Source: Lineus longissimus (lineage: Eukaryota; Nemertea; Pilidiophora; Heteronemertea; Lineidae). From it: 64,000 nt of DNA. Positions 19,901 to 50,186 of this stretch are shown in pieces. How positions within the stretch are numbered: the first letter of the stretch is position 1; each line of letters opens with the position of its first letter. The stretch spans positions 12,588,001-12,652,000 of the forward strand of contig NC_088319.1 of the NCBI RefSeq assembly GCF_910592395.1. Direction: 5' to 3'. Both the position numbers and the translations under genes were made by a program. The notes under the pieces were generated by a model that was not told where the DNA came from, ran no database searches, and worked only from the letters and a program-made list of their open reading frames with translations.

Positions 19901-20227
19901 GCCAGAAAGACTACAGTACTGGTGGCAGGGATATTTCAGTTCCAAATGCGCACCTCAGATGGCGCGGATATTTTGATAATTGGAATTAAATCATTCTTCA
20001 TGGGGTTATTTAGCTAATCTCTACTGAGAAATATATTTTCTTGTGTTGTATAATCAACATGAGACATGCATGCCTTGCATAGTGGCTGCATATCATAGTT
20101 TTATGGTATATAATTATGAAACTGAACCATAGTCATGTGGTAACTGAACCCCAGAAGTGATGAAAGGTCAAGGTCGAGGTTCAATATCAATGAAGGTCCC
20201 TGGCGCTTTGGGGAATTAGCCTCTACC

Positions 20228-21136: not shown

Positions 21137-21222
21137 ATGAGTGTACAGAAGGGGACACACCACTCAGTTTCGCCGTCAGCGCCAGTACATCCCCAGCAAC
21201 AGGGAACCAGACCGCAACAACC
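21137..21222 (+). CDS. EIF4G: eIF4G exon 1 (N-terminus, start codon)
   Basis: Reads [20 protein letters not shown] then QGTRPQQ and ends two bases into a codon. A pyrimidine tract and AG at 21062-21063 suggest that an upstream non-coding exon joins here. Frame continues past the donor only to a stop, so a splice is required. The phase matches exon 2 if the donor at 21223 is a U12-type site. Confidence 0.65.
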
Positions 21223-30200: not shown

Positions 30201-33200
30201 ATAAAACTGGATTTATTGCCTCTGCAACCCTGTACTTGTGGGTCTCGGCAACAATGACCACAACCCATTGTCTGCTTTCATCCCATATCCATATGTTTCA
30301 CTATAACATATCTGGTACCAGCAAGAGAATGAAGACTTTATTTATTCTTATTTGGCAATTCCCCCGGTACATGTAGCTTCCTAAAACACGCCAAATGGTA
30401 GAGTTGTTTCGGCACACATTACTTCCTATTCTATTTTTGCGTCTTTTTTGTTGAAGGTCAATAGATTTGAAATCTATCTAATACAATCATTTTAGCTTAG
30501 CATGTCCTTAAAAAATATACTAATAATGCATGAGAATTGCGATACCTGGTTACTTGTTGCGACTATTCTCTCCTAGATTTCAAAAAGTGCTATCCGGCCT
30601 GACTTTACAAATGTTCCGAGTTCCGAGCCCATCATTGAATGCAGTCTGCCCAGCATTGATTTTTGAGCTCTGCACATTCAAAATATGTCTGTTACACAGT
30701 TTGTCTCCCAAACAAAATGCGCTTACGTTGTGGTGCAGATGAGGGAAGAACCTTTACCATTGTTCAAGGTTACAATGCACTGTCTTTTAGTAGTACGAAC
30801 ATGCATGGTAGCCCCTCTGCCACTGAGTCTGCTCCTTAGGCCAGATTTATATAGGATTCATGTTGTCAATTGTTATGTTTCACTTGTCACGAGTTAACTA
30901 ACTGACCTGGGCTGGAAAATATGTGAGAGTGAAAAGTGACCGCATGAATTGGATGTAGCCTGCTCATTGGTAATGACTTGTTTGTTCTTCATGTCGCATA
31001 TGAAAAGTGTATGGCGACATATTACATTTTGATAAAAACTTCAGAAGTGTCTCATTCTCAGTGACTGAACTGCATGAACTTTCATGCATCCCATCTTTTC
31101 CAATTCCATTCTACGTTTGTCATATCAAATTCTCCTCCGTTGCAGTCTCAGGCTGAAGAATCTGCACCGCCACAATCACCATCGCCACTGGCGCAGAGTA
31201 ACATCGCGGCACAGTTCGCATCGCAAGTCGCCGCTACATTGAATTCCGATACGCTGAGACCTGTACAACCTCAACCAACTGTGACAAAACCTGAATCTGA
31301 ACAATTGGGCGAGGAAACGCCGCAGGTAGAAACTGATGTGAATTCTGAACTGGATTCTAAATCTAATCAAGAGAAACAGGATGTGAACTCTATACCTGAA
31401 CCAGCACCTAGTGTTGTCGTTCCTGCTGCGGTAGAAACACCGGAAACGGTCGCCGAGGAGGCAGTGAAAACGGACACGAGTCACAGTGATAAAGATGTAC
31501 ATGTAGAAAGGACTCCTAAGATTAGTGAACCTAGCGAGGTCGTAAGTGAATCTAAAATTGATGAAAAACCAGCAGCAGTGGTGGAGAAGACGCCCGAACC
31601 TGTCGAACCTGTGGAGAAAGTGCCAGTGGTTACGGAAGAAGAGACAGCTTCAGCTGAAGGTCAGTATCTTATTCATTTCTTTATACATGCTTCCCGAAAT
31701 TGGTGGCTTGCATTGGAACTAACTTTTTCCCCCTTGTCCGTCATTAAAGGCATTCAAGTGTGTTGGTCAACCATGACTATCTCCTTTGTCCCTCCACCAT
31801 AAGGCCTAGTTTCCCTTTATGACATCACTATTTCGGACACTCAGCGCCCCATTTCTGGAAAGGTGTATATTTCGCAGATTGCCCTTTGTCTTGTGTGGTA
31901 TCCTTTAAGATCGATCTCAAGAAATACTCATTTCAAAGATATTCATATCTGTGTGATTTTCGGATCTCTAGTTCAAACGCTACTCTGCATTCATATTCAG
32001 AATCAGATTCACTCTCCGAACCGAATGTATCATTCTTTGTTGCAGTATCATTTGTTTGTATTTCAACAGATGTTCTGGCCTTATCATCTTCAGTCTTGCA
32101 ATTAGAAGAATATTTAACCCAATTTGCAAAATTTCATTGAAACTTAAATATCATTTTGTCCTACAGCAACTCTGCTGAGATGGTCCCCCATTCCAAATAA
32201 GCCCATGCTTGAACTGGTCACATGACACTCAAAGGTTATTGCAAAGGTCATACACTTCAATGCATATGCATAGCAGACAGCAATAGTGTAGAGCTGTGTG
32301 CATAGGGTGGATACATAGGTAGCCATTAGATTCTACTAGACAGTCTGGAGAACTTCCAGAAAAGTTTTCTAAAAAGTTTTGCGAATCATGGATTTGTGTA
32401 GATGATGTTTATCGATTTTAGAGTCTAATAGGAGTTATTCAAGTATTACAAGGTTACAGTATACCATGTCACAGTGGAGAAAAGGTAATAAAGGACAAGG
32501 TTCAGCTGAGGTGCTTTGCAGTGTATTGGCAACATAGGCCTAGTATATGTACCGGGTTTTAGAGAATCTACCACATGTGTTAGGCATACAGTCTTCTCGA
32601 TTGTGTAACCTGCTGTACTCGTGTACAGGCCTGTTCATACTCTTCCATTTCTAAGTGCTTTGTTTTATCTTCTATGTTATATTTGCATAGACTGAGCCTA
32701 GGCCTCGCTGCCCAATAAATATTTTAGGCCTATCCCAAGTTCTTCTACTCCCAACGCAATCTTTAAAAAAATGCCGGCCCAGTCTGTCCTATTTTATGTT
32801 TAAAATTGCATATGTATGCAATTCTGTGTCCTGGTTGCACAGCTATTAGCCTGACTGTGTCGTAGTTTATTGCATGCATATTCATTTGTAAAGTGTGGAT
32901 GTTTATGCCATGAATGTAGAAGTAATGTACAGTAGTCAGTAGTGTCTGCGTCTTCTGTTGGGTGGAATAGGCCTTTTCCGACCAAGATGAATCTCACACT
33001 CGGAACAGGTGAGAAGACCTAAGCCGACTTCGGACAATGCCATTAGCCACTGTGACCCTTTGTTCCAGGTGAAACGCACGACTCTGATTCTAGTGACTGG
33101 TCATCACCCAAACGAAGTTCTTCCAATATGTCGACACTGAGTTGAGAGATGATGAAACTGGGAAAATTCAGACCACATTTGAATTTTTCCATCTTGACTG

Positions 33201-36200
33201 TTGTGTATTCCAGAATTTATAGAAAGTCATCAAAATCAGAAATCACAATTTGACTAGTCACAATATGTTGCAATATATTGATTGAGTAAAGTAGTCTGTT
33301 CTTCTCAGCTGGGTACTTCAGCCAGCAGATTGATGCCAGTATTATACTGAAGAATTCTGTGTCATTTGGTGTAATGAAGTGGTCGACAATGTACTGTTGC
33401 ACATACTGTTGTAATGTATGCCAAGTGTGCAGCTGTCTAAGTGAACACTGCGTACATGTACATTTATGCATACCGTGGCTCCTGCAAGATTTGATATCTT
33501 CTCTGGAGGCGTAATAAGCATACTGATTAGGTACCCCAGTAATGTTAGGATGGCCAATTGATAATCTAGCATGACTGATTGAATGAAGGCTGAGCAATCA
33601 CAGGTCTCCAAAGAACTTTGAAAACAATCCCAGATAAACAAAATAAGCTATTGAGACTCCGGATGCTGGTTGTGTGAATGCTTTTGATCTTGTTCGGGTT
33701 TGGTGTTGTCTTTGAAAATGTACATGTTATGTATGTACAGACAACCCAATCTTGCCACACACTGGTGTGGTAAACACACCAAAGAGCGAACCAAAAAGCC
33801 TAGCATAATACCTCCGATTGAGTCCATCATGTGGATAATTAGGCCATTGGCTGATTTTGGTGAGCTGACAAAGTGCTGGCCTTTGAATTTTAGTGTGAGT
33901 AAATAGCAAAGTCACGACAGTAGGCCTACAGTTTGAATATACATGTAAAGAATAGTATTTTTCTGTCAAATGGTGTCGACAAGTCTCCCCTTTGTTGCTA
34001 GGGTGAACTTAAAGCTGAAGTCAAGAGTAGGAGTTGTTGGTAAACAGCATCTCTGTAATCACAGTGAATAGAGTAAGCCCATTGTTTTTGCCTGAAGTAC
34101 TAAAAAGAAACAAGTCTACCTGTGCACTGTGTTAACTGGCATTGATGAAATTCATAGGCCTTTGACTTGAGTTGCATTGGTGTAGACCTACTGTTTGTAA
34201 GGTTAGAAAGAGATAGGAGGCTATCTGGAGGGAATATACTGTGTACAAGGCCCTACCAAGGTAGTTCTTGGCCTATCTACCTACACTAGGCCTAACATCT
34301 CATATTGAGCTCAGTGTGCTAGGTTAGGGAACCTACTTTTGTTGTTGTAAGTGTTCTTATATTGTGTTCAGGGTATTCTGTGCTGCAGTTGCATTGTATA
34401 CTTCATATCATCTATGCCAGCTAGTTAAAAGATAGGCCGAGAGTAATGTATTGAGGCTAAGTGTTGGCAAATCTTCTATTTTCGTGAATTGCCCATGGAC
34501 TAGAGACAGTGACAGTCACCATGGTATCCTTACTTTTATACTAGGCCTAAATACAAAAATCCTGCTGTGGAAATGTCATGAGGTTAATCTGCCTCACTTT
34601 TGGCAGTTCATGAAAACTACAAGAATGTCTGGTATCCGGTTAGTCATTCTAGCTCTTGTTTATAGTTACCGTTTTTGTCGTCTTGATAACCTACTGAAAA
34701 CTAGGCATGTTACCTGTGTCTGCGTCAGACTGTTAAGTACGGAGATACATCTTACCATTGAGTTCCTGACTGTTCTGACTTCTTGGCTCCAGTTCTGAAT
34801 ACGTTTTCATGCTACCTTGATGTACATAACCATAGGTCTCCAAGTGAGGTATTGATGTAGGGTCCAGATGGTTCCTAGAAGTTGGCCATGAGTGATTCTA
34901 ACAATAGTATCTTTACTGTAGTGGAGGAGAAAAGCAACAGTCAGAATGCTTGATTGACTCATCACTTTACAAGTGTTTTGTTTGCGCCATTCTTAAGTCC
35001 TGTTCTCCACTTCGAGAGGGTCTGGTAGTCTCTGGTAGAATCTTGCCCAAAGTAGAAGCACGACAGAGCAGGGTCGGCTCTTGCCTCGAAACGTCACTGC
35101 GAAATTCTGAACTTCAGATTATTCGATGCCTTCTGTTGTCTTTGTCAGATCTGTCACATTCTATTCTTGTAAGGAACCTATATTCTGCAATTTGAGATGG
35201 ATAAAAATATAGTACTATAAACTTTGATAACCATGGGTCACATTCACCTTTTGGGTCACATTCGCCTTTTGTCTCAATTTCCAATTTATTTTCAGGTCTC
35301 AGCAGTTTGACTCGAAGAGAATGCCAAATTCTGCTTCGTCTGACTATAAAGTTTTATCATGCTCTTGAAACAAAGACAGCTTATGCTTGTAGTTAAAATG
35401 AAACACCATGCTAATTGTACGCATATTTCATGTCTTTCAGCAAAGAGTAAATCTAAGAGACACAAAAAAGATCTCAATGAGAAAGGCAAGACGAAGGAGG
35501 GCACGGACATGGACCTGTTCGTGGAGGAGGCGGCCACGGCTAAGCCTGTTCCCGTTGTGGTCCCGGAACCCACACCAGCACCAGTGACAGAAGTCAACAA
35601 CGTCGACCAGAAACTGAAAGATAAACCAGCGTTGACGGTCGAGATAAACGTCGAGGAATCAAACGAGGCGAAGGTGCAGGAGAAGAATGAGAAAAACGAC
35701 GTGAAGTCACACGATGTTCCTGAGACAAATAGCAAGATTGGGATGCCAAAGAAAGATAAGTCTACGGACTATGATTATAAGGAAGGTAGGTGGCACCTCT
35801 GGTTCGAGACAATATCACAACCTTTAGTAGGTGAAGAGACCTTGTCAGTTCTTTTGAGGTGGGAATCGAGCATTTGGAAAGAGTTTACACCAGAATTCAT
35901 GCGGTTGCATTTGGAACCGGTCAATTCTAAAAGGATCTCAAAGGATCCGTGACATAAGAAGAACCTGAACAAGTCTTTGGCTTAGTTCTTTCGAGGTTCC
36001 TTGACGTCAGGAAAGAGTCTTGAACAAAACTGGAAAGGACATGCTCTTTGAACAGGCCGGTTCTGTTAAAGGTCTCCTGCATTTTAAACTCGGTTAACCC
36101 AGGCTATATTCACCACCGGTTTGAATGCACTGACTATGATAAGAGATTATTTTAGGATGTTGTGTTTTCCTTCCAGAAACGTTCAGTCCTCTCAGTCCAG

Positions 36201-39200
36201 AAGCCAAGATGCACTACGATAGAGATTTCCTCCTCAGCCTGCAGTTCACGACGGGTTCAAAGTCAAAACCCGACGGACTCCCCAAACTCCCTGATGTAAT
36301 CCTAGACCGGCCGCGACAGATGGGCGACACCGGTGGCAGATCACCGTTAATCAAGCCTGGATCCCAGCCAGACTTCACACCTGGATTCATCAAATCGTCA
36401 ATCCCTGGACGAATGGTACGTTGGAAAATGCCACTCTTTCATTTTGATCGTGGCTTGAGACACTTCCGCTACTGACTTGACCCTCTGGGGCAAGCTACAT
36501 AACTAAACGTTCCTCAAAGATATCCTTTGAGGTTCATGAAAGAGACTCTCGAGACCTGTTGTATGTGTTCTCCTTCTTGGAATGAAGACTATGAGTACAG
36601 GATACAGCATGAAGTTGGAATGGCCTGCAAGTTGTAGTGATGATTGTATAGTTCAGCAGAGGATGTTTCCATTGAAGACAACTTTCGCCCCTATCTGATG
36701 CAACTTGTGACCTAGATTTTTAAAACTTCGCAAAGTCAAGGGATTCCTACCCCTTCAATTTGTTTGATCTGCTATTGAATATTTTGTTTCCAGAGCGGAG
36801 GTAGTGGTGGTGGCGGCAGTGGTCGTGATGACCGAGGCCGCATGGGTGGTAGCGGACGCCGTGGCTCGGAACAGGGCCGTAAAGAACCCAAGAAGATCAT
36901 CCTAGAGTTGCCGCTCGCCCATCAAATTGAACTCCACCACGCTGAGAATGCCTGGAAACCATCCACAAAAACCGCAGATGTTGCACTGACTCCTGAAGAA
37001 CAGGCTGAACAGGTACGTAGATTGGCTAGAATACTTTGGCACTTACTCTTCAACACCCTACTTGTCAGGCATTGAGCGAGTTGTAAATGATGATTGTATA
37101 GTTCAGCAGAGGATGTTTCTATTGAAGACAACTTTCGCCCCTATCTGATACAACTCAAAAACTGCTCGCTAACTTATTTGCAAGAACTGGTTATTCATTA
37201 GGAGAAGGTTCCATGCCAATCATTGGACCTTACTGGGAACAGATTTTCTTTATCTTATTCATTCCTAAAAATGACATCTATTTCTAATTCCAGGAGGTCT
37301 ACAAGGCTGTTCGTGCCATCCTCAACAAGCTGACACCGCAGAAATTCCAAGTACTTATGAACCAGATCCTGGAACTACAGATCGATACTGAGGAGAAGCT
37401 CAAAGGAGTTATTGACCTTATATTTGAGAAGGTAGGGTGATCTTATTTATGTCTGACTGCCTGCTTCGGGTCTGATTTGCGCTGTCAAGGTCTGTTGTTG
37501 AAAAGTGAGAGAAATAGTATCCCGGACATTCACATGGTTTGTACCAGAGTATCTGTGTTGTGGGTTCTCTGTCTAGTCAAAAGATGAATAGGTTGTGATT
37601 AAGTTTCAGTGCATAAAATGGTGTCATTGCAATTGTGCTATATCTTCTGTTGTTTCATTTCAGGCCATCGATGAACCCAACTTCAGTGTACCCTATGCTC
37701 ACATGTGCAAACACATGATGATCGTAAGTAGACGAGCATGTTAAAAGTATTTACTAAATGTTAATTCGTTTTTTCCCTGCTTTCTTTTGAAAAGCAAGCA
37801 CAGCCATATTACTTTGAATGTTGAACATTGGACAAGTCAAAATAGATCAGGCTGATGTAGTTTTCTAAAATGGGCCAAATGGTATTAATTGGGCTAATTA
37901 TCCAAGTCAATGATGTCAGTTATCCCTGTCTTAACCCTATTCTGTGGAGACGTTATTGCTGAGACTTAAATTGCTTTTGAGATTATTAAGAACTTGTTAC
38001 ATTCAAGACTGACTGGACAATGAACTTATTTGACCAGGCTTAGACGAAGTAATGTTTTGACCGCCTTAAGTCCTTCATTCTTTTGAAGTGGGGTACCATT
38101 CCTTTCTTTTCAGGTAAAAGTGCCGGCCAAGTCCCCAAGTAGTGGTAAACTAGGTGATACCGTGTTATTCAGAAAGTTCCTGCTCACACGCTGTCAGAAA
38201 GAGTTTGAAAAGGATAAAGCCAACGAGTTGGATCTGGCAACCAGACAGAAGGCCATCGATGAGGCCGATTCAGAGGACAGGAAGAAGGTATTGACGCTAG
38301 AATTGAATTATGAAGCTGCCAAATCGAAACGGAGATCACTAGGTAATATTAGGTAAGTGAAGTTTGAGGTCTCAAATTAAAAAATTATGCAGCCATTCTT
38401 GTTGTCATCGATCTTGTATTGTTGAAGTGGTGTTACCAGATTCACTCCAAAATTACTTGACGTACAGAGTTATCAAGGAATGCCAATTGTTCTTAGGTCA
38501 CATCTTCCTCCTATTAGTAAACTATTTATATACCGGGAATTTGGAGCCAGTTTAGAAATATTTGACAGCCATCACTACCTAAGAAAGACTCCCCATTGAT
38601 TATGCTTACAGAGTAGAGATGGCATAGTGATATGGAGGTTGATGACAGTGTAGACACTAAAAAGTGACAATAGATATGAGATGGATTGGTTCCCATTTCA
38701 CTGTCGAAAAAGTTGTAGGCAAAATGGAGAAAAAATAAAATTGTTGGAATCGAATGTTCACATCATCTGAATTGTCTCCCTTCAGGTTTATTGGTGAATT
38801 ATTCAAACTAAAGATGTTGACAGAACACATCATGCATGACTGCCTCGTAAAGCTACTGCGCTCAAACGACGAAGATAACCTAGAGTGCTTGTGCCGCCTC
38901 CTAACGACGATCGGCAAAGACATCGACCACGACAAAGCTAAGGTAAGGCAACCTAAGGTACTGATAATTTTAGAGAAAAAAATTTCTTCCCCGAAAAATT
39001 GAAATTTGAATTTTTTGACGACACAGGGCCGAGAGTGAAATAAAAGCAAAATAAAAATATCCTCGCCCTGTTTTCTTTTGAACTTCAAATTTTGAAAACT
39101 GCACGTGATAACCATTTTGAGCACTTTCCTTTTGGTAGTTTTGCACTTGAAAAAGAACAAGGCCAGATAATGCTATAATAGAAACGAGATAGAACGGTGA

Positions 39201-42200
39201 AGTTTAGATCCAGAGTGTGAAATTTCTCTTACATAAACAATACTGTAGCCCACCTTTCAACTTAACCTTGCACATGACCATTTCCTGTGCACTGACATTG
39301 TTGGAAGTGTGAATACCATCTGGATGAGTTGTAAATGATGATTGTATAGTTCAGCAGAGGATGTTTCTATTGAAGACAACTTTCGCCCCTATCTGATACA
39401 ACTCTTGTACTTGTGATTGAGACAGCAGTAGGATTCTGTTTGTTCTTTGTGATAAAAGTACAGTTTTGTTGCATTAAATTTTGGACAAAGCTATCAAAAG
39501 TTCAAGCCTGGCTCTTTTGAGACCGGGCTTACTTGTTGTTCCAATGTAGAAATCAACAGTTTTATTGTATCCTTAATTGTCATAATGTTCTCTGTTTCCT
39601 TTAACGGCTCATTAACGCACCTCTAATCATTCTAGCCCCGGATAGATCAGTACTTCCAACAGATGGACAAGATCGTCAAACAGAAACGGACATCAGCTAG
39701 AGTTCGTTTCATGATTCAAGACGTGATAGAATTGCGATCAGTAAGTAGAACAGAGAACTGGGAATAAAATAACCCCAGACCTGTTCATTTTGTCGCTTCT
39801 TGGCCAGATTATCCAAGTCCGTGATGGTAGTTATCCCTGTCTTAACCCTAATGTGTGGAGACGTTTCCTGCTGAGACTTGAAAAGGTGACAATTATACAG
39901 ATTTCTTCAGCTTATTCACTCCAGGTGAGGCTTGACTTTTAAAGGGGAAAGCGCATCAATTGTTTTGATACCAACTGAGGTGCAGGAAGGGCATCGTTTT
40001 GCTTGTACAAAATTTGCTTGAACTTCGAATTTTAATATTGTGAAATTCACTGTCGATGGTCTGTTTTCAGAGTAATTGGGTGCCAAGACGTGACGACAAT
40101 AAGCCAAAGACGATAGACCAGATCCATCAAGAAGTTCAGCGAGAGCGCCAAGAGGAGCAGTTCTTAATAGCACAACACGCCTTGAACCCTCAACCTGTCT
40201 CGGCGAAGAAGAGAGGGCCACCTGGTGGAGGTAAGTAGAAAGACTAATGCGTATTAACTCTCTCAGATTGCAAGGAGGACTTTAGTGGTTATGGTTTATG
40301 TGCTCTGCTGTTGTAAATGATGATTGTATAGTTCAGCAGAGGATGTTTCCATTGAAGACAGCCTTTCGCCCCTATCTGATACAACTCAATCTTTGACAAT
40401 TTATGTTGGAAAGTCTTATTCAAATAAATTAAAGGTTTCTAATCTCATAAAAGTGTTCATGTTGATTGAAAATACTTGTATTTCAGGCCGTGGTCAAGCC
40501 GCCCCTAACTTTGGTCCTGCTCAGAATCAATCTGAAGATGGATGGAAGACAGTTAGCGCCAAAAATACCATTGATCCTACCAAGATGAAACTCAGCAAGG
40601 TAGGCAAAAAGCTTTTCAAACAGATACTTCTCGATGGGCCTTGGATGCCAGGCATCTTGGAAAAAGAATCTGAATTCTGAGTACAGCCTAATTTGGAATC
40701 AGACACACCACACATGTAGCTCTTGACTAAAGCTAAAAAGAATTACCGGTATTGGTATTGAAGTTCTTATCGATTTTCCTAAAATTGATAAATTTAGGTA
40801 AATTAGTCCTGATTCTAAAGCGTTGTATTCAAACATCATTTCGTTGACTGCTTTCAGCCTTCAGTAGATGAAAACAGCATCCAGTTAGGTCCTGGAGGTC
40901 GACCTGGGTTCTCCTGGGGACGGGGTAGCAGCGGCGGTTCCAAAATGCAACAGAACCAGTCTTCGGGAGGAGATTCATCTGAACCACGTCCGTCTACGCC
41001 AAGTAACAGGTCAGTCTGCGGGTGCTGTGGTAATCATAGAAATGGCTTGTAGGGGGAACCACTCAAGGTCTGCAGTACTTTCTAACAAGTAACATCTCGC
41101 CAACTCGGCCTGTCGCTGAATGTCTCATTCGTAGAGATTACGCTGCGAAAAACTCGTGACAATGCAGCTACGTGGGTTTCTGACCCTCCTTGTTCAGCTT
41201 GGCTGCTCTAGTAGTTTGAGAGCCCTGTTTGTGCACATCAAAAAATTTAATTCATAACTTGCTATAACAAGATAAATGATGTTCCAATATACCTTGGTAT
41301 GTCTTCAATCATTTCAAAGGGACAATCCCTTAGCCTTGGCCCGAGTGCAGAGGATCACACCCTTTGGGGTTAATATGGTGAAGATGATTCACTGATTCAA
41401 GGCATTCTAGAATTGAAACGCTGTAAATGATGATTGAATAGTTCATCTGAATAAAGATGTCGATCCAATTTTCGCCCCTATCTGATACAGCTGTCTGATC
41501 TTATCTTATGTTAGGTTTGAAGTGATTGAATCCCTTGTGAATGGTGTTGTTCCTATTCTAGTCACTTGAGTAACCCTGCACTCTCCTCACAGTGTTTAAG
41601 GTGCACAAGCCGAGGTTTCTAAGCCTACAACATGGCTTGAATTTACTAGGTTCTGGACAAAACTGAAGTTGCCTGACTGCACATCAGGCTGATTTCTGCC
41701 GAGCAGAGCCTCTTTTGTTGAGTTGTTGCATTATGTCATCATGTTGTCTAGCCAATAAGTTGAGGCTACGCTTGTCGAAGTTACAGATACATATCCATTG
41801 GATGCCAGCTTGGGTTTTGTCTATTTTGATGATTTCTCAGTAAATGACATCAGCAAGGCTGTTGGAAGATTTCCAATATAATCACTGTTAGCGGGCGCTG
41901 TTCAGCTGCGCAAGTGAAAAAAAATGCCATCTCCTTGGTGATTTTCAACAAAAAGTGTCATTTGAAGCTCTTGACGACGTAGTGTAGCGACTTGGGCTGA
42001 TGCACCCAGCAAACACTGTAAGAGGATTCCCATCAACATGGGACTTAAGTAGTCCCTGTTGTGTGCTAAGATATTGTGCCGTGTGTGTTGTGAAGTGTGA
42101 ATGTGTGGTGTTGAACTGTGAGTGAAGAAGGCACCCTAACCTGACCCACTTAGCCTCTTAAAGCTTGCGCAAAGTGAAGCTTGCTTCCTGTACTCGATTT

Positions 42201-45200
42201 TATATTAACAGCATTGTTCAGTTGTCTTTCTGTCTTGGATCTGATTAAAGTACTTGGGTCTCAATTAAAAGGTAAATTATCTTTGAAAACTCTTGAATCC
42301 ATCTGGAATTTATTACAAGTATAGTGCCGTGACACTCCAGGTAGTGGACAAAACATGCAAAATTTATGTACAATCTGAATGGATCTTTTCTAATTTCTCC
42401 TCCGAACCTGATATAACCCCTTATTTCCTTTATTCATTAGTCTCTTGGTGTTGTTATCCCGTGACTTCTAATCTGCTAGGGTTCTAAGTTAAGAACAATT
42501 TGGGGTAAATTTGAAAATGTGCAGAAATGAACTTAAAACCCTGTCTCCTATATTTTGCATCCTATAGTTCGAACCTGTCCCTTGGTCATTTATTTCCCTG
42601 AAACTATACTACTGAGTTGCTGGGTAGACTCAGACTGAGTAGCATGCCACTAGTAAGATGCATTAACCCAGAATATCTGAAAATTGCCCCAGTGGTGAAT
42701 GGCATTTTACTATCGGAACCTCTTCACACCACTGCATCATGCCTAGCTTTAGGTCTTCAGATTAACACAGGTTTTCCCTTTGGATGTGTAGTGGAGCTAT
42801 CTAAACCTGGCAGGGGTCTCGTTTGGGATCATAACCGTGGTGCTCTTTTCTCCAACTCCCATTTCAAAATTTAAAACCTTTTTGTGGTTTCAGTTTTAAT
42901 TTGTATCAAATGTGCATTTTAAAAAGGGGAGCAGTTGTTTTAAACCTCTCATTGCAAGAAATCTTATTGTCATAGATGTAGTGATCATTTTGATTGGTTG
43001 ATACTAATAGATTGTTCAGTGGCGTCCAATCATAATGCCTGTTACATCCTCTTGACTTCACAACTGCTACCCTTGGTCCTTTCAAGACTGATTGCTGCTT
43101 TTCCTCGATGGGACAAAACCATAAATGTCTACCTGTATAAATCGTAAATAACCTTGATGCGCAAGAGTTAAAAAATTCAGAGATATAATTGATGAGACAT
43201 TTCCAGTTTTTGAAAGGTTTCAGTTTTTTCTCCGTAGAGCAATACATTTTCAAAATTAAGTATCTATTCGGGGCATACCATGCTTATTCTTTATAGTTAA
43301 AAACTGATAGGGACATCATTGAAGAATGGATCAAGAATTTTCCGACAAAATTTGTTGTAGGATGAGAAAGCAAGAGTCTTGACAGGATAGCATGTTTATC
43401 TAGTTTCCAACCTCCATTTTGTCTCGCTGCTGTCGTAGTGGCTTTGTTGTCATAACTCTGCATGCCCGCACGCCTTCTGGATGTGTCCGTGTTGTCTCCC
43501 TGTAGGTTCAGTGCCCTAAGCCAAGCTGATGGTGGCTATGATTCCAGGGGGAGAGGTGCTGGACGAGGTCTTGGTCCCAGGCCTGACAGTAGAAGTCGCC
43601 AGCAGCAAGGGACGCCCGGACGCCACGACCGAGGCAAGAATACGAGAATGTCGCAGGAGTTGGAGAGGGAGCAGGCTATCGCTGCTGTTAGGTGAGTGTG
43701 GGACATGGAGACCCCAAGGAAAGGAAGCATTTTCTTAAAACCTGTAGGATGTCTGTTGATAGGTTATTTTGACAGGAAAAACAAGACCTGCACCTGATGA
43801 GATGTTCCTAGTGGTTATTAAAAAAAGTGCCGCCATTTCTCAAGGGATCTTTGTCAATAACTTCGTATCGCATTTAATGAGTCTTACTGTTTGTTGTGCC
43901 TCTGCAGTTAGCTTTGCTTCACTAATTTTGTTGCAATTAAGTGCATCATTTAAACGCAATTATTACCTTAATAAAGCCTGCTTTTCATTATGCTTGCTTC
44001 GTTAATTTTTAATTTGAATACATAGCGAAACATGTATTGATAAAAAAATTGGTATTGATTATAATCACCTTGTGTGTTTTGTTATATGATCGTTCATGTA
44101 AAGCTTGTATCGTTTCTTGCACTCCAAATTTGACGAAGAAAGTGCTCAAAATTATCACAACAAATACGAATATTTCCAAGTTGGATCACATTTATTTGCA
44201 TCGCTTTGTGTTTCTGTTGAATATGTATGTGCTATATGTTCCATTTGGCCAAAAACCTGACCAGGACGCTATCTTATTATTCAAAAAGAAATATTCACTC
44301 ACAAACATATAATGCGGCATTTTGTCTTTTCGGCTACTTTATTTTATTTTTATTTCGCCAACTTTTTCAGGGTCATGAAAGATGGAAGGTAGGATTGAAA
44401 AACAGAAAACAAAACTTGTAGAAACAAAAGAAAAATGGAGAAAAATAAGCATTTACTGAAAAACTAACATGGCAAAATTTTGCGTTTTGACATGCAATCG
44501 TGACCACAGTGCCGAAACGAATGAATATACAGGTTACGACCTGCAATAGACTCGTCCGAATATTTTCCAAATAAATCTTAGAGGGGTGTCATGCGATCCT
44601 TGTACCACGCGATTTCACCGGACACGAAACATTCACCTGGTCTGTTGTTTCCGGAAATCTTTTCCCTACTCTCATGCAGTCAATCGATTGGGCGCTGTGG
44701 TGACTGTAAAAGAGAAGTTTTGCTTGATGGCAAATGTTGGGGTTTTGTCCATTATGTACATTTGTTTAAAAAATCCAAACTGTTCTCCTTGGTCTGCCAA
44801 ACATGCATCATCAGGAGAACGGTCAGATGTGTTGGAGGTGGAATGGGTTTGGTGAATTCAGACGAATCCCACAGCATTGTAAGAAAAAGCCAGGTCCTGA
44901 GAAGTGGATGAGAACAACTTTTCAAATCTGCCTTCAAAATCACACTGGTTTCCTTTTCATGCTGTTGGTTTTGGCTTAACCAGAAGATGTCTTGCATGAA
45001 CATCCCAGATTCCTATGGGTGGATTTGCCTCCAGTCATTTCAGGGCCGTGTTGTTCTGAAACATGCTCATGCTACGGATAGAATGAGACTCAGTTATGCT
45101 TGTCCAAAATGTCAAAGCCAAATGGGGGATTCGGAAGTGCCATGATCTCTGAGTGACCTACTCACCCCAATTTGTGCATCAAAACAGCAAATAGTGAATA

Positions 45201-48200
45201 AAAATTGAGATGGCAGCCAGCACCATCTTTGTGGTTTGATCTGTTAATATTAATAGCTGGTAACTAAAATTTTCACTATTCTGTTGAACAAAGTAATTGG
45301 TGATTGTTGGTGTTGGGGAGATTGGTTTGAACCTGTTAACCAGTAGCACCAGTGTGTGAGGCAAGAGTTGATGACACCTACTAACACAAACACAAGTCCT
45401 GTCCTTGTATATATGCTTCCCATTCCTTGTAGTGTTGATTCCCTAACTGTAAACCAGAAAATTTCCACTTTTGTTTGGTTACCTTGGGATTGACTTGATG
45501 GAGTCACATCTAGGAAGTATGATGTGCTGCAACTACCAGTACATGTAGTTAAAAAACTCATTCATTCACAAAAATGATCCATGAATTCAAGGGATAAAAG
45601 TTGTGTTTTGTCTTTTCGAAGTCAATGATGATGTTTGTTATCCCTGTCTTAACTCTCATGTGGACATCATTCAGACTGAGACTTCAAGCGGAGGAGCAAC
45701 TTCTGTTGGAATCCAACATCAGTTCAAAAGCACTTCACTCTGTGATGTCATGTGGGGGGTGGGGGTGGTTGCAGTTGTCATTTGCAGTCCATTATGGCGT
45801 TCCTACACGAAATCCATAGCATAGTATTACCAAATATGACCTTGTACAAAAGAAGTTTCATAATAAGTGCATCATTGTCAGACTAAACCTTGAACTTTTC
45901 ATTTCAGGAGTCTTGCTCAGTCTCGACAGGGTTCTACGGGTCGACAAGGCGGCAGCCGCGAGGGGAGCCGATCACGAGAAAACCGGGACGACATTGAACC
46001 GATCGAGGGACAGCGCGAACCCGAGCGACAGAAACCTGCCGTCGTTCAATTGTCTGATGAGAATATGGAGAAGAAGGCTAAGGCTATTATTGATGAATAT
46101 CTACATTTACAGGACATCAAGGTATATGAAAAGTTGTTTGCTCTCTTCTCTGATCAGGTGCGTGTGGCAGGTTCTGATTAGCGTATGGACTTGACATGGC
46201 AAGCACGTTGTCATTTGATACATCGCCATTCAAGGGAACCCACAAAATTAAAATCACCAAAGGAGATAGTTGAATTATGAGTGATGATTGTATAGTTCAG
46301 CAGAGGAAATTCCATTGAAGACACCCTTCGCCCCTATCTGATACAACTCGTAAATCTCAGCTGGCCTCGGATAAAACTTGCATATCAGTCATTCTTGTCC
46401 AATTCTGTTCTATTTGAGTCTTAAAATGCATAATCTCTACCATTTCAGGAAGCTATGTTGTGTATCTCAGAACTAGAGGAGCAGAAGAACATTCATGTGT
46501 TCGTGACGGCAACGATAAACCACGTGTTGGAGAGATCTGAGAAGGCAAGGCAGCAGGCTGGCCATCTTCTTCATGACGTCGTCAAAGGTGGTCTGATCAC
46601 TGTCGCTGATTACCTCAAAGGGTGAGTAGGCATGGCTCTTGTGGGCCTCCAATCACAAAATTGATGGAGGGACTGAAATCTGCGAAAATTTGGCCGTTTA
46701 CCGGAGAGGAGTCTGTTTTGATGGATGGGCTTTCTTTAATGATGCTTGTTCTAGAAGAGTTGTAAATGATGATTGTATAGTTCATCGTAGGTTTAATCCG
46801 AGGAAGACTATTTTCGCCCCTATCTGATACAACTTAAAATTGCTTGGAAAACAATAAAAGAAATAGGTTCCGAATTGGAGTGAAGTTCTTCTGGGATTTG
46901 AAATACATTCAGTACTGTAAAACTTCTTCTTCTGGACACCCTTGTTCTTAAGAATCGTGACGTGGGCCTGATTTCAAATGTGGTAAACATAATAGGAATT
47001 GCCAGTTTAGTCCTAAATCTATCTTGAGCAGGAGTGTTCTGACAATGGTGTCTGAGCTGTGTAGCAAGGTTCAGCTGTGGGTATGTGTTATAATGCTAAC
47101 AACGTATCCATAAATTTCTTTCAGATTAAATGAAGTGTTAGAATATGCTGAAGACATGGAAATCGACATCCCCAAAATCTGGGCGTATTTTGGGGAATTG
47201 ATCGGCCCCATGGTCCACGACGGTAGCGTCCCAATGGTCTTCCTCAAAGATGCCTGCAAGCCGCTCCACGGCCGTAAAGCCGGCGTGTTAGTAGCTGCCA
47301 TATTACACGACGCCAGCCATAGACTAGTAAGTGACCGGCGGTTAATAAGTCCATTTTGTTTGTAGTCTGTTGGGCTGTGATATGGGGCTATGCCTGAAAC
47401 TGTAGCTACATTTTCTGGGCCTCTGAAATCTGAAGTAGTGTTGTTGTGTTCACTAAACAATATTCACTTGTGTTATTTGCGAATTCAACACTAAAGAAAT
47501 TTTCTATTTTATCATATCGAATTGGTTGTTTAGCTAATATGCTTTCGATGCTTCTGGTATAACCAGTTGGCCTGTGGGTGTATTAGGTCACAGAAGTCAA
47601 TGATGATGTTTGTTATCCCTGTCTTAAATACAATGTGGACATCTTACAACTGAGACTTGATACATTGTTCTGCAAAATCGGAAATAACAGTACATTGTGC
47701 TGCACCGAATGTAAGCAGATGCCATTTCCTAATCGGCTTTTTCTTGATTCCAGGGTCATATAAAAGTAGGTGAACTGTGGCGACAATCGAAGCTGCAGTG
47801 GACCGATTTCTTAGCTCCTTCAGATGACTTAGAGAAGTTCCTTCAAGATAATGTAAGTTTAAATGCTGTGAATTGTTCCAAAAACTCATACAAGTTCAAT
47901 CAGTATTTCGTGGAAGAGGTTGTTTTCTGGAGCAGATTGGAAGTCGATGATGATTTTTGTTATCCCTGTCTTAACACTCGTGTGGACATCGTACAACTGA
48001 GACTTCAGAATGGATGTGTGTGGCATGAGACTATTGGCAGGGCTCTTTGTCTTACTTGCCTCTCTGCACCCAAATGTGTATAAATGGGTAACAGTCAGAA
48101 TTGCTCAGATTGTAACGCTGGTAGCTCATCTGAGGTCCACTGAAAGGTTTTAAAGACCGGTGTTAATGAGATAACCCATATCGTAGTTGATATCAGACTA

Positions 48201-50186
48201 TAAACCCAAAACTAAAACTTTATGTGTGCTATGTGCAGCTGCTATCTTATCGATGACACTGAATGTCAAATTACACGAGTGAGTGATAATCTCATCAATC
48301 TTTCCCTGCATAAGATATGCAGAACGTGCATGCCGACTGAAACGAAACAGAAACGAAACTGAAACTTAAACTGAAACTGAAACTGAAACTCCATACTCCA
48401 TATAACAAGTTGTTTCTGTGGTACTTTCAGAAATTAGAATTCACCGTTGCCTCCCGCGAGCAGCACGTAACACGGTCGTTGTCTATAGAGAACATAATGG
48501 ACCAGCTTCAAGAGTTATTATCAAAAAAGAGTGCTGACAATGAAGAGGTGTTTGACTGGATAGAGGTAAAAGAGCTTGTTCATGTGGACCATGCCTCAAC
48601 AGGGTTGTTCAGAACTTAGGATACCACAACATAATGATGATATAAAGTGTAGTCAAACGGTGGAATTTGCAAAGTATTCGAACTTGTGAAGTATGGTGAC
48701 TCTAGAAAAGTGAAATGCTAAGTGTTAGCACCAGCAAATTGCTAAGTACGAGGTCCTCTTGTAAAAAGTCTTGTATTCAAATCCATCCCCATGTTGTGGC
48801 AATGTACTTCACTGGTGACAAAACACGACGTGTTCTCACAAGAGTTGTAAATGATGATTGTATAGTTCATCGTAGGATTTATCCAAGGAAGACTATTTTC
48901 GCCCCTATCTGATACAACTTGCTAAGAATTCTATCCGAAAGGAATCTTGACTGTGTTGCGACATTATCAATATAGTGTGAATTTAGGAATTCTCCATGTT
49001 CTCTCTCTTTCACTTTCAGGCCAATGTGGGGGAGGCAAAAGCAAAGGAAGCCAAATTTATCCGTGCCTTGATGACAGAAGTGTGTGCCAGTGCCATTGAA
49101 GGTAAATAACTCTTCAAAAACTGATCCAAAAATGTTAGGAGCCTCATGGCCTACCAGTACCACGCAGGCCGGCCGGGGACAACCCAGATTTGTATCTCTG
49201 GTTGTACTGGTGTGGATTTCAAGGAAAGAAAACTCCTGGCTCTTCTGAAGTCTTCAGAGACTTGGAAGCGATATTCTCTGTACCTGATAGTACCAGAGAT
49301 CCTACAGGAGCAGATTGGAAGTCGAGGATGATTTTTGTTATCCCTGTCTTAACTACCATGTGGACACAATACAACTGAGACTTCCATAAAATGTTTAGGA
49401 AATAGTTAAGAGTTGCCCTAAATCAATTCAAAACTTTGGTGCCGTTGTCCAACTCGGTAAAAAGCATAATTTGGTCATGCCTACTGAGGGTAGCAGCAGT
49501 ATGTATTTAGTCCTCCTTAAAATTTCGAGCGACTTTGATTTCAGGATCTGGTGCGACTTCAAAACTCGATGATACATTGCTGAAGAAGCGCTCTGTGGTG
49601 TTACAGAAGTATTTAGACCATCAAGCTGATTTAGAATTGCAAGCTCTCTATGCATTACAGGCATTAGTCAATAGTTTAGAGCATCCTCCAGGTAGGTCTA
49701 ATGTTTATCATATCATTCTGGCCAAAGGTACTCCGTTGAACTGGGGAATGTGACCAGATTTTTGAAAATTTTTGGTAGAGTTGAAGTCAATGATGATGTT
49801 TGTTATCCCTGTCTTAAATACCATGTGGATTCGTTACAACTGAGACTTCATTGAGCGACACATTCTGAAAGACCTTGGGAACAGAACATCAATATTCATT
49901 GCGGCGGTCCAGTCATTCTTGATCAGCACTTCATGATGGTACCGTAAATGCTTTTGGCAATTATTATTGAATTGTACATATTATGAAATCGCATTTTCCA
50001 GGTCTAATGCAGATGTTCTTCGACACGTTGTACGATGAGGACATCATTTCAGAAGATGCATTTTACACATGGGAGACGTCAACCGACCCTGCCGAGCAGG
50101 AGGGCAAGGGTGTCGCTAAGAAATCTGTGGTTCAGTTCTTCACGTGGCTCAAAGAAGCTGAAGAAACCGGGGGCGATGACAGTTAG
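21137..50186 (+). CDS. EIF4G: Eukaryotic translation initiation factor 4 gamma (eIF4G1/3 type), 30 coding exons, ~1613 aa
   Basis: eIF4G is the scaffold of the cytosolic eIF4F cap-binding complex, joining eIF4E, eIF4A, PABP and eIF3. Exons: 21137-21222, 23906-23949, 24265-24329, 24611-24736, 25203-25409, 26343-26405, 28923-29034, 29278-29516, 29841-29876, 31146-31659, 35441-35785, 36177-36415, 36794-37012, 37294-37431, 37664-37723, 38114-38352, 38786-38942, 39636-39740, 40071-40230, 40487-40599, 40858-41009, 43506-43691, 45908-46121, 46449-46621, 47125-47326, 47754-47852, 48431-48565, 49020-49101, 49545-49691, 50002-50186. The sum is 4842 nt (1614 codons with stop) and every junction keeps frame. 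The start ATG is the first after an in-frame TAA. Domain order: Q/P/Y-rich N-terminus, PABP-contact-like motif, acidic linker, eIF4E-binding YDRDFLL, MIF4G, Gly/Ser/Arg linker, MA3, W2. Exon 1 and the exon 2 start are the weakest calls. The gene is also the host of the snoRNA units listed below. Confidence 0.95.
21223..23905 (+). other. Candidate U12-type (minor spliceosome) intron 1 of eIF4G
   Basis: The donor at 21223-21231 reads GTATCCTTT, the U12 5' splice-site consensus, and no good U2 donor of the right phase exists nearby. Upstream of the acceptor, TTCCTTGAC at 23886-23894 matches the U12 branch-site consensus TTCCTTRAC. The AG at 23905 is 12 bases after the branch A, the usual U12 spacing. 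An AG at 23899 is also in frame but closer than usual. The intron also contains three units with AGCTCGAGTGTAACAC-like sequence near 23388-23450. Confidence 0.7.
23900..29876 (+). CDS. EIF4G: eIF4G exons 2-9: Q/P/Y-rich N-terminus with PABP-contact-like motif
   Basis: Low-complexity segments rich in Gln, Pro, Tyr and Met (e.g. [42 protein letters not shown]) precede [20 protein letters not shown] in exon 8. That motif aligns with the vertebrate eIF4G KRERKxIRIRDPNxGGxDIT region just after the PABP-binding segment. Exon 9 (29841-29876) is a 36-nt microexon encoding [12 protein letters not shown]. Confidence 0.88.
24849..24916 (+). pseudogene. Decayed family B C/D snoRNA remnant in eIF4G intron 4
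   Basis: Sequence GTCAATGGTGGTAGTTATCT followed by CTGTCTTA, GATGTGGGA and CTGCGACTTG lines up with family B units along its whole length. However box C is ATGGTGG, box D is CTGC instead of CTGA, the guide has a C-to-T change, and the terminal stem is weakened. It is probably a dead copy. Confidence 0.5.
28270..28402 (-). mobile_element. tRNA-derived SINE (head and short body) in eIF4G intron 6
   Basis: On the minus strand, GTGGTTTAGTGGCTCGG (box A-like) is followed by CCTGGTTTGATTCCTCC (box B-like), with an anticodon-arm-like stretch between them. The 5' and 3' acceptor strands do not pair, and the sequence runs on into an A+T-rich tail, so it is a SINE head rather than a working tRNA gene. 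Confidence 0.7.
29046..29156 (+). other. Possible structured RNA (nested inverted repeats) in eIF4G intron 7
   Basis: AATGTTTCT near 29046 pairs with AGAAACATT near 29147. Inside it CTGGAGA pairs with TCTCCAG, and CGGCC pairs with GGCCG, giving a three-way-junction layout of about 110 nt in a 243-nt intron. It is not a clear H/ACA or C/D RNA. It could also be a small foldback repeat. Confidence 0.35.
31146..31659 (+). CDS. EIF4G: eIF4G exon 10: acidic, Pro/Glu/Val-rich linker
   Basis: This 514-nt exon encodes a disordered-looking stretch dominated by E, P, V, S and T (e.g. [20 protein letters not shown]), as found between the PABP and eIF4E sites in animal eIF4G. It starts after TTGCAG and ends GAAG/GTCAGT in phase 1. 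Confidence 0.85.
31660..35440. other. Long eIF4G intron 10, nothing firm recognised
   Basis: Apart from the possible alternative exon at 33069-33145, no exon, snoRNA box pair or clear transposon is visible. Repeated short phrases such as AGGCCTA are scattered through it. Confidence 0.5.
33069..33145 (+). CDS. Possible alternative terminal exon of eIF4G (uncertain)
   Basis: After TGTTCCAG an ORF in the phase left by exon 10 reads [20 protein letters not shown] then MSTLS and TGA. Its Ser/Asp-rich composition resembles the neighbouring linker. If used, it would end the protein after the PABP-contact region, before the eIF4E site. No poly(A) hexamer is obvious just downstream, so it may be chance. 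Confidence 0.25.
35441..36415 (+). CDS. EIF4G: eIF4G exons 11-12: basic patch and eIF4E-binding motif
   Basis: Exon 11 (35441-35785) opens with a basic run [20 protein letters not shown], like the KRRRKIKELNKKE segment of vertebrate eIF4G. Exon 12 (36177-36415) encodes [16 protein letters not shown], a canonical YxxxxL-phi eIF4E-binding site, followed by [14 protein letters not shown]. Confidence 0.93.
36628..36707 (+). ncRNA. Box C/D snoRNA, family A copy 1 (SNORD80/77, snR60-like), eIF4G intron 12
   Basis: Terminal stem CAAGTTGTA/TGCAACTTG; box C GTGATGA at 36637-36643; box D CTGA at 36695-36698. D'-side guide TGTATAGTTCA and D-side guide ACTTTCGCCCCTAT match the two 28S guides of SNORD80-type RNAs (targets containing TGAACTATG and ATAGGGGCGAAA). 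It ends 86 nt before the 3' splice site. Confidence 0.85.
36794..39740 (+). CDS. EIF4G: eIF4G exons 13-18: MIF4G (HEAT-1) domain
   Basis: Exons 36794-37012, 37294-37431, 37664-37723, 38114-38352, 38786-38942, 39636-39740. After a Gly/Arg-rich lead ([19 protein letters not shown]) the protein reads [60 protein letters not shown] and [15 protein letters not shown]. These are the core HEAT helices that bind eIF4A and RNA in eIF4G. Confidence 0.95.
37078..37156 (+). ncRNA. Box C/D snoRNA, family A copy 2, eIF4G intron 13
   Basis: Stem GAGTTGTA/TACAACTC; box C ATGATGA at 37087-37093; box D CTGA at 37145-37148. Both family A guides are intact. It is nearly identical to copies 1 and 3. Confidence 0.87.
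37904..37967 (+). ncRNA. Box C/D snoRNA, family B copy 2 (SNORD1, snR38-like), eIF4G intron 15
   Basis: Stem AAGTC/GACTT; box C ATGATGT at 37910-37916 (last base off consensus); box D CTGA at 37959-37962. The D' guide GTTATCCCTGT followed by CTTA is intact and complementary to ACAGGGATAAC of 28S rRNA. It shares the flank ATTATCCAAGTC with copy 3. Confidence 0.72.
39326..39404 (+). ncRNA. Box C/D snoRNA, family A copy 3, eIF4G intron 17
   Basis: Stem GAGTTGTA/TACAACTC; box C ATGATGA at 39335-39341; box D CTGA at 39393-39396. Both guides are intact. It is identical to copy 2 over almost the whole unit. Confidence 0.87.
39815..39880 (+). ncRNA. Box C/D snoRNA, family B copy 3, eIF4G intron 18
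   Basis: Stem AAGTC/GACTT; box C GTGATGG at 39821-39827 (last base off consensus); box D CTGA at 39871-39874. Guide GTTATCCCTGT intact. Closest to copy 2, with shared CTTAACCCTA and GTGTGGAGACG segments. Confidence 0.7.
40071..46121 (+). CDS. EIF4G: eIF4G exons 19-23: post-MIF4G linker
   Basis: Exons 40071-40230, 40487-40599, 40858-41009, 43506-43691, 45908-46121. The linker starts [20 protein letters not shown], the usual extension after MIF4G, then becomes Gly/Ser/Arg/Gln-rich ([39 protein letters not shown]). Exon 23 ends in the first MA3 helix ([17 protein letters not shown]). Confidence 0.92.
40310..40385 (+). ncRNA. Box C/D snoRNA, family A copy 4, eIF4G intron 19
   Basis: Stem GTTGTA/TACAAC; box C ATGATGA at 40317-40323; box D CTGA at 40376-40379. 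Both guides are intact; the spacer has an extra base (GACAGCCTTTCG). It ends about 100 nt before the 3' splice site. Confidence 0.86.
41420..41491 (+). ncRNA. Box C/D snoRNA, family A copy 5 (divergent spacer), eIF4G intron 21
   Basis: Stem GCTGTA/TACAGC keeps pairing by a compensatory change relative to the other copies. Box C ATGATGA at 41427-41433; box D CTGA at 41482-41485. D-side guide TTTTCGCCCCTAT intact; the D' guide has one change (GAATAGTTCA), and the spacer is rewritten (TCTGAATAAAGATGTCGATC), giving a cleaner CTGA D' box. Confidence 0.85.
45618..45685 (+). ncRNA. Box C/D snoRNA, family B copy 4, eIF4G intron 22
   Basis: Stem GAAGTC/GACTTC; box C ATGATGA at 45625-45631; box D CTGA at 45676-45679. 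Guide TGTTATCCCTGT intact; the D-side sequence is GTGGACATCATTCAGA. Confidence 0.85.
46268..46350 (+). ncRNA. Box C/D snoRNA, family A copy 6 (weakened terminal stem), eIF4G intron 23
   Basis: Box C GTGATGA at 46281-46287; box D CTGA at 46338-46341; both guides present (TGTATAGTTCA and CCTTCGCCCCTAT). The 5' stem strand is altered (GTTGAATTATGA), so only about four pairs with TACAACTC are evident. It could be a poorly processed or dying copy. Confidence 0.7.
46449..47852 (+). CDS. EIF4G: eIF4G exons 24-26: MA3 domain
   Basis: Exons 46449-46621, 47125-47326, 47754-47852. Reads [60 protein letters not shown]. This HEAT-like domain is the second eIF4A-binding site of animal eIF4G. Confidence 0.93.
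46757..46836 (+). ncRNA. Box C/D snoRNA, family A copy 7, eIF4G intron 24
   Basis: Stem AGTTGTA/TACAACT; box C ATGATGA at 46766-46772; box D CTGA at 46824-46827. Guides GTATAGTTCA and ATTTTCGCCCCTAT. The spacer TCGTAGGTTTAATCC is shared only with copy 8, defining a subfamily. Confidence 0.87.
47593..47659 (+). ncRNA. Box C/D snoRNA, family B copy 5, eIF4G intron 25
   Basis: Stem GAAGTC/GACTTG; box C ATGATGA at 47600-47606; box D CTGA at 47650-47653. Guide GTTATCCCTGT intact; D-side GTGGACATCTTACAA. Confidence 0.85.
47940..48006 (+). ncRNA. Box C/D snoRNA, family B copy 6, eIF4G intron 26
   Basis: Stem GAAGTC/GACTTC; box C ATGATGA at 47947-47953; box D CTGA at 47997-48000. Guide GTTATCCCTGT intact; D-side GTGGACATCGTACAA. 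The upstream flank GGAGCAGATTGGAAGTCGA is shared with copy 7, implying recent intron-to-intron copying. Confidence 0.85.
48337..48392. repeat. GAAACT/GAAACG microsatellite in eIF4G intron 26
   Basis: A 6-bp unit (GAAACT, with GAAACG and GAAACA variants) repeats about nine times shortly before exon 27. Confidence 0.9.
48431..50186 (+). CDS. EIF4G: eIF4G exons 27-30: C-terminal W2 domain
   Basis: Exons 48431-48565, 49020-49101, 49545-49691, 50002-50186. Ends with [36 protein letters not shown] and [13 protein letters not shown]. The acidic/aromatic W2 tail is the site that recruits MNK kinases in vertebrate eIF4G1/3. Its presence argues against the shorter eIF4G2/DAP5 paralogue, as does the intact eIF4E motif. 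Confidence 0.93.
48842..48920 (+). ncRNA. Box C/D snoRNA, family A copy 8, eIF4G intron 27
   Basis: Stem AGTTGTA/TACAACT; box C ATGATGA at 48851-48857; box D CTGA at 48909-48912. Both guides intact; spacer TCGTAGGATTTATCC as in copy 7. It ends about 100 nt before the exon 28 acceptor. Confidence 0.87.
49318..49384 (+). ncRNA. Box C/D snoRNA, family B copy 7 (altered box C), eIF4G intron 28
   Basis: Stem GAAGTC/GACTTC; box C AGGATGA at 49325-49331 (T to G at the second position); box D CTGA at 49375-49378. Guide GTTATCCCTGT intact. The box C change may impair protein binding. Confidence 0.7.
49793..49849 (+). ncRNA. Box C/D snoRNA, family B copy 8, eIF4G intron 29
   Basis: Stem GAAGTC/GACTTC; box C ATGATGA at 49800-49806; box D CTGA at 49840-49843. 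Guide GTTATCCCTGT intact; the D-side sequence differs (GTGGATTCGTTACAA). It lies in the last intron, about 150 nt from the acceptor. Confidence 0.85.

Follow-up and report, generated by a model that had tools for sequence, protein, structure and literature searches.

In animals, box C/D small nucleolar RNAs (snoRNAs) are encoded one per intron, depend on splicing for their production and are freed by exonuclease trimming. The imprinted SNORD115/116 arrays carry many copies of the same guide, also one per intron, as repeats of whole exon-intron units within a non-coding host. In Drosophila, the mfl gene, which encodes a pseudouridine synthase, contains four copies of DmSnR60, one in each of introns 6-9 (PMC1821038). 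In chicken, EIF4G1 holds GGgCD23 (HBII-142) in introns 11 and 14, the GAS5-type host repeats snR60-type guides in adjacent introns, with two copies of U80, and intragenic duplication into different introns of the host is described as the main route of C/D expansion (PMC2653536). Such duplication within one host is described in human also, as for the SNORD58 family in RPL17; there, most C/D families are found in one host and 95.2% of them have 0-4 expressed members (PMC8178906). Here, we describe an array of 15 putative box C/D snoRNA units in the introns of an eIF4G1-like gene of Lineus longissimus. The window analyzed is a stretch of 64 kb, positions 12,588,001-12,652,000 of contig 12, in a genome of 391,118,348 bases and 30 contigs.

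Exactly one unit was found in 15 of the 18 introns from intron 12 to intron 29, always on the + strand, which is the strand of the host. Eight units (family A) belong to snosnR60_Z15 (RF00309, SNORD80 type) and seven (family B) to snoR38 (RF00213, SNORD1 type), whereas introns 14, 16 and 20 contained no unit, including when the covariance-model filters were off. The Rfam gathering cut-offs are 41 bits for RF00309 and 45 bits for RF00213; model R1 was built from the array's own copies. The units, named by family and intron, are the following:

36629..36706, + strand: A12, snR60/SNORD80-type, intron 12; RF00309 44.3 bits
37078..37156, + strand: A13, snR60-type, intron 13, identical to A17; RF00309 51.0 bits
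37902..37969, + strand: B15, snR38-type, intron 15; RF00213 43.1 bits, under the cut-off of 45
39326..39404, + strand: A17, snR60-type, intron 17; RF00309 51.0 bits
39813..39881, + strand: B18, snR38-type, intron 18; RF00213 45.6 bits
40308..40387, + strand: A19, snR60-type, intron 19; RF00309 51.9 bits
41418..41493, + strand: A21, snR60-type, intron 21, the most diverged A copy; RF00309 50.2 bits
45617..45686, + strand: B22, snR38-type, intron 22, downstream of a micro-exon; RF00213 47.3 bits
46272..46349, + strand: A23, snR60-type, intron 23; RF00309 37.3 bits (under the cut-off of 41), R1 89.3 bits
46757..46835, + strand: A24, snR60-type, intron 24; RF00309 40.5 bits (under the cut-off of 41), R1 98.3 bits
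47592..47660, + strand: B25, snR38-type, intron 25; RF00213 41.4 bits, under the cut-off of 45
47939..48007, + strand: B26, snR38-type, intron 26; RF00213 45.1 bits
48842..48920, + strand: A27, snR60-type, intron 27; RF00309 41.2 bits
49317..49385, + strand: B28, snR38-type, intron 28; RF00213 45.8 bits
49782..49850, + strand: B29, snR38-type, intron 29; RF00213 46.4 bits

All 15 units matched an Rfam model and 11 reached its gathering cut-off, the other four being short by 0.5-3.7 bits: 6/8 A units passed (A23 and A24 did not) and 5/7 B units (B15 and B25 did not). A sequence-only reading of the same DNA had placed 15 units here, in this order of families and on this strand, one per intron, and had assigned them to the SNORD80 and SNORD1 types; the Rfam and covariance scans agree with it on each of these points. 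The exact guide strings occurred 8 (A) and 7 (B) times in the window and 8 times each when up to three mismatches were allowed, and none of 100 shuffles reached 8, which excludes chance. When 15 units were placed at random 20,000 times, they all fell in different introns in no trial with length-weighted introns and in one trial with equal weights (exact probability 0.00016).

The window contains one more recognizable copy, upstream of these introns:

24847..24916, + strand: decayed B (snR38-type) unit, intron 4; model R2 39.3 bits, E 2.4e-6

This copy has no exact box C and its box D reads CTGC. The earlier claim that the units span introns 12-29 holds for the 15 listed above, but this decayed unit lies outside the span, and intron 22 is split by the micro-exon described below. 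A candidate A copy at 22307, in intron 1, gave 17-19 bits and was rejected as unconvincing. The rest of the 64-kb window had no gathering-level Rfam match, and neither had 14 further loci of the genome (86 kb, partly overlapping) that were fetched for other reasons and do not form a random sample.

The host gene and its micro-exon are located as follows:

21137..50186, + strand: eIF4G1-like host gene, coding span (Pfam, protein match and exon mapping)
44371..44388, + strand: micro-exon of 18 nt, in frame (RVMKDG), within intron 22 (present in NCBI isoform X3; splice signals)

By our count, the gene has 30 coding exons plus the micro-exon, the small exon 9 being positioned by peptide match alone. 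Introns 12-29 span 36416-50001 and have GT..AG ends in 18/18 cases, and the joined exons give a single open frame of 1000 aa. The protein carries MIF4G, MA3 and W2 domains (Pfam) and its top match is the L. longissimus eIF4G1-like protein isoform X3 (1619 aa), with 99% identity over the 1000 aa queried, which supports the proposed eIF4G identity of the host; the matches also include the eIF4G protein of Tubulanus polymorphus. In isoform X3, where the micro-exon is included, 15/19 introns instead of 15/18 bear a unit. Each eIF4G coding exon maps once, and hence there is no repeated exon-intron unit.

The sequence-only reading had also credited every unit with a terminal stem, a box C and a box D. 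This is right for box D (CUGA, near the 3' end), which is exact in 15/15 units, and needs qualification for the rest: box C (RUGAUGA, near the 5' end) is exact in 12/15, and in the 8-bp stem of family A the two outermost pairs are missing in A19 and A21 and two inner pairs in A23. The inner stem persists in A21, where one T-A pair has become C-G. Overall, 89.1% (A) and 85.7% (B) of the terminal stem cells are paired, as against at most 49.1% and 44.9% in slid controls. With element borders drawn by hand, invariant columns make up 30/32 of the boxes and guides vs. 8/32 of the linker in the A alignment (Fisher p 1.8e-8), and 21/25 vs. 10/34 in the B alignment (Fisher p 5e-5). This contrast, among the copies, between near-constant boxes and guides and variable linkers indicates purifying selection on the former. 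The guide stretches align with the Rfam family consensus. Family A keeps both of them, A21 and A23 each departing at a single position. In family B, the D' guide alone is kept and the stretch preceding box D is variable, and B thus looks like a single guide.

The distance from a unit to the 3' splice site ranges from 87 to 2012 nt, and 5/15 units lie at 87-99 nt. Compared with random placement within the same introns, the closest approaches to the 3' splice site (87 nt, p 0.010) and to the 5' splice site (65 nt, p 0.039) are both larger than expected, and the two limits together have p 4e-5. This spacing fits a presumed splicing-dependent release of one RNA per intron.

Taken together, we consider it probable that the array consists of genuine box C/D guide snoRNAs, encoded in introns and belonging to two ancient families, which spread by copying of the unit and were kept for their supply. 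Each unit would presumably be freed, once the eIF4G intron is spliced out, by debranching and by exonucleases that trim back to the terminal stem. A single pre-mRNA could then give rise to as many as 8 snR60-type and 7 snR38-type RNAs. With two conserved guides in the snR60 type and one in the snR38 type, they would be aimed at the large-subunit rRNA sites of their families; for snR60, these are A1469 and G1560 of 28S rRNA in chicken (PMC2653536), and for snR38, they are given as Gm4362 in human and, as printed, Gm2812 in yeast (PMC3511168). The array would have grown as single units were repeatedly copied from one intron of the gene to another; now and then a unit would have decayed or, rarely, escaped to another gene (PAN2, NIPBL-like), and the many copies would be retained for their contribution to a total supply of guide that is needed. 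In family B, the further apart two units lie along the gene, the more they differ (Mantel r 0.91, p 0.02), as local copying predicts. We infer expression, processing, methylation targets and retention for total supply from sequence; at this level, the array is real and very probably functional at least in part.

Several observations weigh against this interpretation. Ten of the 15 units lie 137-2012 nt from the 3' splice site, whereas the vertebrate optimum is about 70 nt (PMC1821038). Units B15, B18 and B28 have no exact box C match, and the compensatory stem changes (2 pairs per family) do not clearly exceed a column-shuffle control for covariation. Family A does not show the trend of divergence with distance (r 0.04, p 0.38; r 0.40, p 0.06 when A21 is excluded). 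As to supply, larger families in human do not necessarily have a higher total abundance (PMC8178906). Finally, neither a 5.8S match nor an exact 28S string to pair with the guides was found in the 391-Mb assembly. When 28S strings were sought in viral contigs, one locus (L086) carried the complement of the A guide, but it had been located with a string already containing this complement and proves nothing. Of the 12 loci from these scans, 8 were compared with Rfam and gave no match.

Within the genome, the location of intact units appears near-exclusive to eIF4G among the matches listed; the covariance and BLAST counts refer to such matches and are hence lower bounds. The exact 15-base A guide followed by box D occurs in 8 places, all in eIF4G, and a search with RF00309 (E<=10) gave 12 matches, the 8 eIF4G units followed by four at <=28.7 bits. 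The exact 16-base B guide occurs in 8 places, 7 in eIF4G and one on contig 16, while the 12 matches of RF00213 comprise the 7 eIF4G units, the contig-16 copy and four at <=29.4 bits, among them the decayed copy of intron 4. BLAST with one unit per family found at least 7 (A) and at least 6 (B) places, all already known, and missed A21, B15 and B18. With one mismatch allowed, only locus L043 looked real among 20 places for the A guide, and among 8 places for the B guide, locus L067 gave a 16-bit match at E 0.61 and the rest gave none. Two relatives of the array were thereby found in other genes or close to them:

L069:3176-3244 (contig 16:4763175-4763243), - strand: intact snR38-type copy in a PAN2 intron, sense to PAN2; RF00213 43.2 bits (cut-off 45)
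L043:213-262 (contig 4), + strand: shortened snR60-type remnant; 26 bits, internal deletion, box D changed to CTAA

The PAN2 copy is 94% identical to B25. Open reading frame (ORF) pieces ending about 0.7 kb upstream of the contig-4 remnant match a Nipped-B-like protein, and the remnant may lie inside or adjoin an NIPBL-like gene, its position in an intron being our reading.

Other features of the window are a tandem repeat upstream of eIF4G (18907-19901) with a 68-bp basic unit and higher-order periods, a long tandem array at 59305-63014 (107-bp unit, about 35 copies, 95% matches), and a 304-aa ORF at 11457-12371 with a LicD-family match (PF04991).

The way in which the copies arose can be approached through their flanks. 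Pairwise identity is 67-100% in family A and 60-94% in family B (nine copies, including the decayed and PAN2 copies). A13 and A17 are identical over 79/79 nt, their flanks match at 4/20 and 7/20 positions, and the alignment stops exactly at the ends of the unit. When the units were masked and 19 introns were compared, the best shared stretch was 27 nt long (E 0.009). It joined introns 13 and 18, whose units belong to different families, and was out of register with the units. These short matches, together with the ends of A13/A17, imply that the copied segment was close to the snoRNA itself. In three pairs (B15/B18, A24/A27, B26/B28), which are not the closest non-identical ones, similarity continues for 10-13 nt ahead of the unit and for no more than 1 nt past it; the other pairs have a shorter upstream extension or none, and in two weaker pairs the match reaches 4-6 nt downstream.

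The copies could well have come from DNA-level recombination of intron segments, their flanks having decayed later, or could owe their likeness to gene conversion restricted to the unit, the only homologous stretch, though we lean slightly against this. Recombination within the host is the favoured explanation for C/D families (PMC8178906, PMC2653536), and the common upstream nucleotides of the three pairs above agree with it. Moreover, the identity of A13 and A17 in otherwise unrelated introns would be accounted for by conversion within the unit as well as by recent copying. Recombination of intron segments is at odds with the masked introns, whose best similarity joins introns of different families, and unequal crossing-over would have duplicated exons, each of which maps once.

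A neutral ratchet is a tentative alternative, somewhat further from our preference: units would spread among the introns of a single transcribed gene because they cause no damage there, the work would be done by one or two copies of each guide, and selection would not act on the number itself. Cis-duplication of C/D snoRNAs is indeed common, and in human, total abundance does not necessarily rise with family size (PMC8178906); the decayed unit of intron 4 and the broken NIPBL-like copy show turnover. Local repetition of the same guide was also found in 3/3 other families examined in this genome. SNORD14 gave 4 matches at E<=1, three of them within 1.2 kb on contig 17; SNORD24 gave 6 matches, three within 10 kb on contig 17; and SNORD18 gave 7 matches, of which two are neighbours on contig 15 and four weak ones form a group on contig 11. 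Of the five families examined, the two in eIF4G have the largest local sets (8 and 7). Against neutrality, 15/15 units in introns 12-29 keep box D and the main guide and no decayed unit was detected there, even with copies diverged to 67% identity, whereas redundant copies should often have lost boxes or guides.

Among these other families, the contig-17 loci also carry SNORD36, SNORD79 and further C/D families. RPL7A may host a part of this cluster according to our reading of ORF pieces, although a Pfam scan of the joined pieces found no family. The four weak SNORD18-like matches (28-31 bits) lie within 4.3 kb at contig 11:3771231-3775491 (L111-L114) and possibly form a serial array.

It is also conceivable, although unlikely in our view, that units moved as exact units among the introns of their own gene via an RNA intermediate, which would make eIF4G a self-populating host; cis-reinsertion and selection for guide supply would then have filled 15/18 introns. 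This idea stems from the fact that A13 and A17 share the unit only and that the three pairs share their upstream and not their downstream flank, since a processed RNA with a fixed 3' end should leave copies with shared upstream flank. If it were true, the output of two rRNA-methylation guides would be tied to that of a translation initiation factor. Against it speak the close pairs A13/A19, A12/A13 and B25/B29, which have no upstream flank in common, the two weaker pairs that extend downstream, and the lack of target-site repeats and A-tails: flanking direct repeats measured 4-7 nt in 16 units vs. a null mean of 5.3 nt (max 9), and no A-run in the 12 nt downstream of the units was longer than 5 nt. 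Retroposon hallmarks are unsupported, though old copies may have lost them.

We regard it as very doubtful that the main action of the units is on eIF4G itself, for example by pairing with the intron or mRNA or by pacing splicing, and not on rRNA. Intronic snoRNAs have been described to influence the splicing of their hosts (PMC10324135) and nearly every downstream intron is occupied, but the conserved parts are the guides and boxes, which match rRNA-guide families and for which a cis role would have no need; and because all units share one orientation, their mutual pairing as inverted repeats is impossible. Lastly, a dispersed repeat or SINE resembling snoRNAs by chance, which near-identical short elements with unrelated flanks might suggest, is extremely improbable and was rejected by the genome string, covariance and BLAST searches: among the matches listed, there are at least 8 A and at least 8 intact B units, 15 in eIF4G and one in PAN2, all sense, they match curated snoRNA models, and their direct repeats are like the null.

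We return to probable guide snoRNAs copied within their host and kept for supply. The array is a natural experiment in which copies can be ordered by age and their ends compared: 15 of them look intact, one has decayed, two relatives have escaped, and the exons are single-copy. It addresses the unsettled question of how snoRNAs come to sit in host introns, a process called still enigmatic (PMC2653536), and bears on whether snoRNA copy number matters, which a human study argues it need not (PMC8178906). No title or abstract in the literature searched, which covers mostly non-subscription journals, reports this eIF4G array, and the matches for snoRNA and nemertean were, by title, mitochondrial-genome papers.

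The sequence-only reading had considered such serial amplification in a protein-coding gene as not described. This is too strong, as duplication into different introns of one host is described (PMC2653536, PMC8178906), coding hosts included (PMC1821038, PMC2653536), and the Lineus array itself agrees with the definition of a cis-duplicated C/D family: same-guide copies in separate introns of one host, on the sense strand. Its statement that GAS5 hosts U77/U80 is correct (PMC2653536). In contrast to that type of host, which is non-coding and in chicken carries ten C/D snoRNAs of several families (PMC2653536), the Lineus host encodes the eIF4G protein. Chicken EIF4G1 is the same host gene with same-guide copies, but the guide is another one (18S C1230) and there are two copies (PMC2653536). 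The mfl gene resembles eIF4G as a protein-coding host of a ribosome-related protein with several same-guide C/D copies, one per intron; it differs in that its four copies, at about 70 nt from the 3' splice site, occupy introns of the 3' untranslated region, which is variable (PMC1821038). DmSnR60 has predicted 28S sites G1083 and A1092 (PMC1821038), and we link it to snR60 by name only. The eIF4G gene, unlike mfl, has 8 + 7 copies of two guides, interleaved and in coding introns, and unlike in SNORD115/116, its exons are unique and the units alone are repeated. The arrangement is known; what is new is its scale, with an unusually high copy number, and on sequence grounds the eIF4G array appears as a striking extreme of it.
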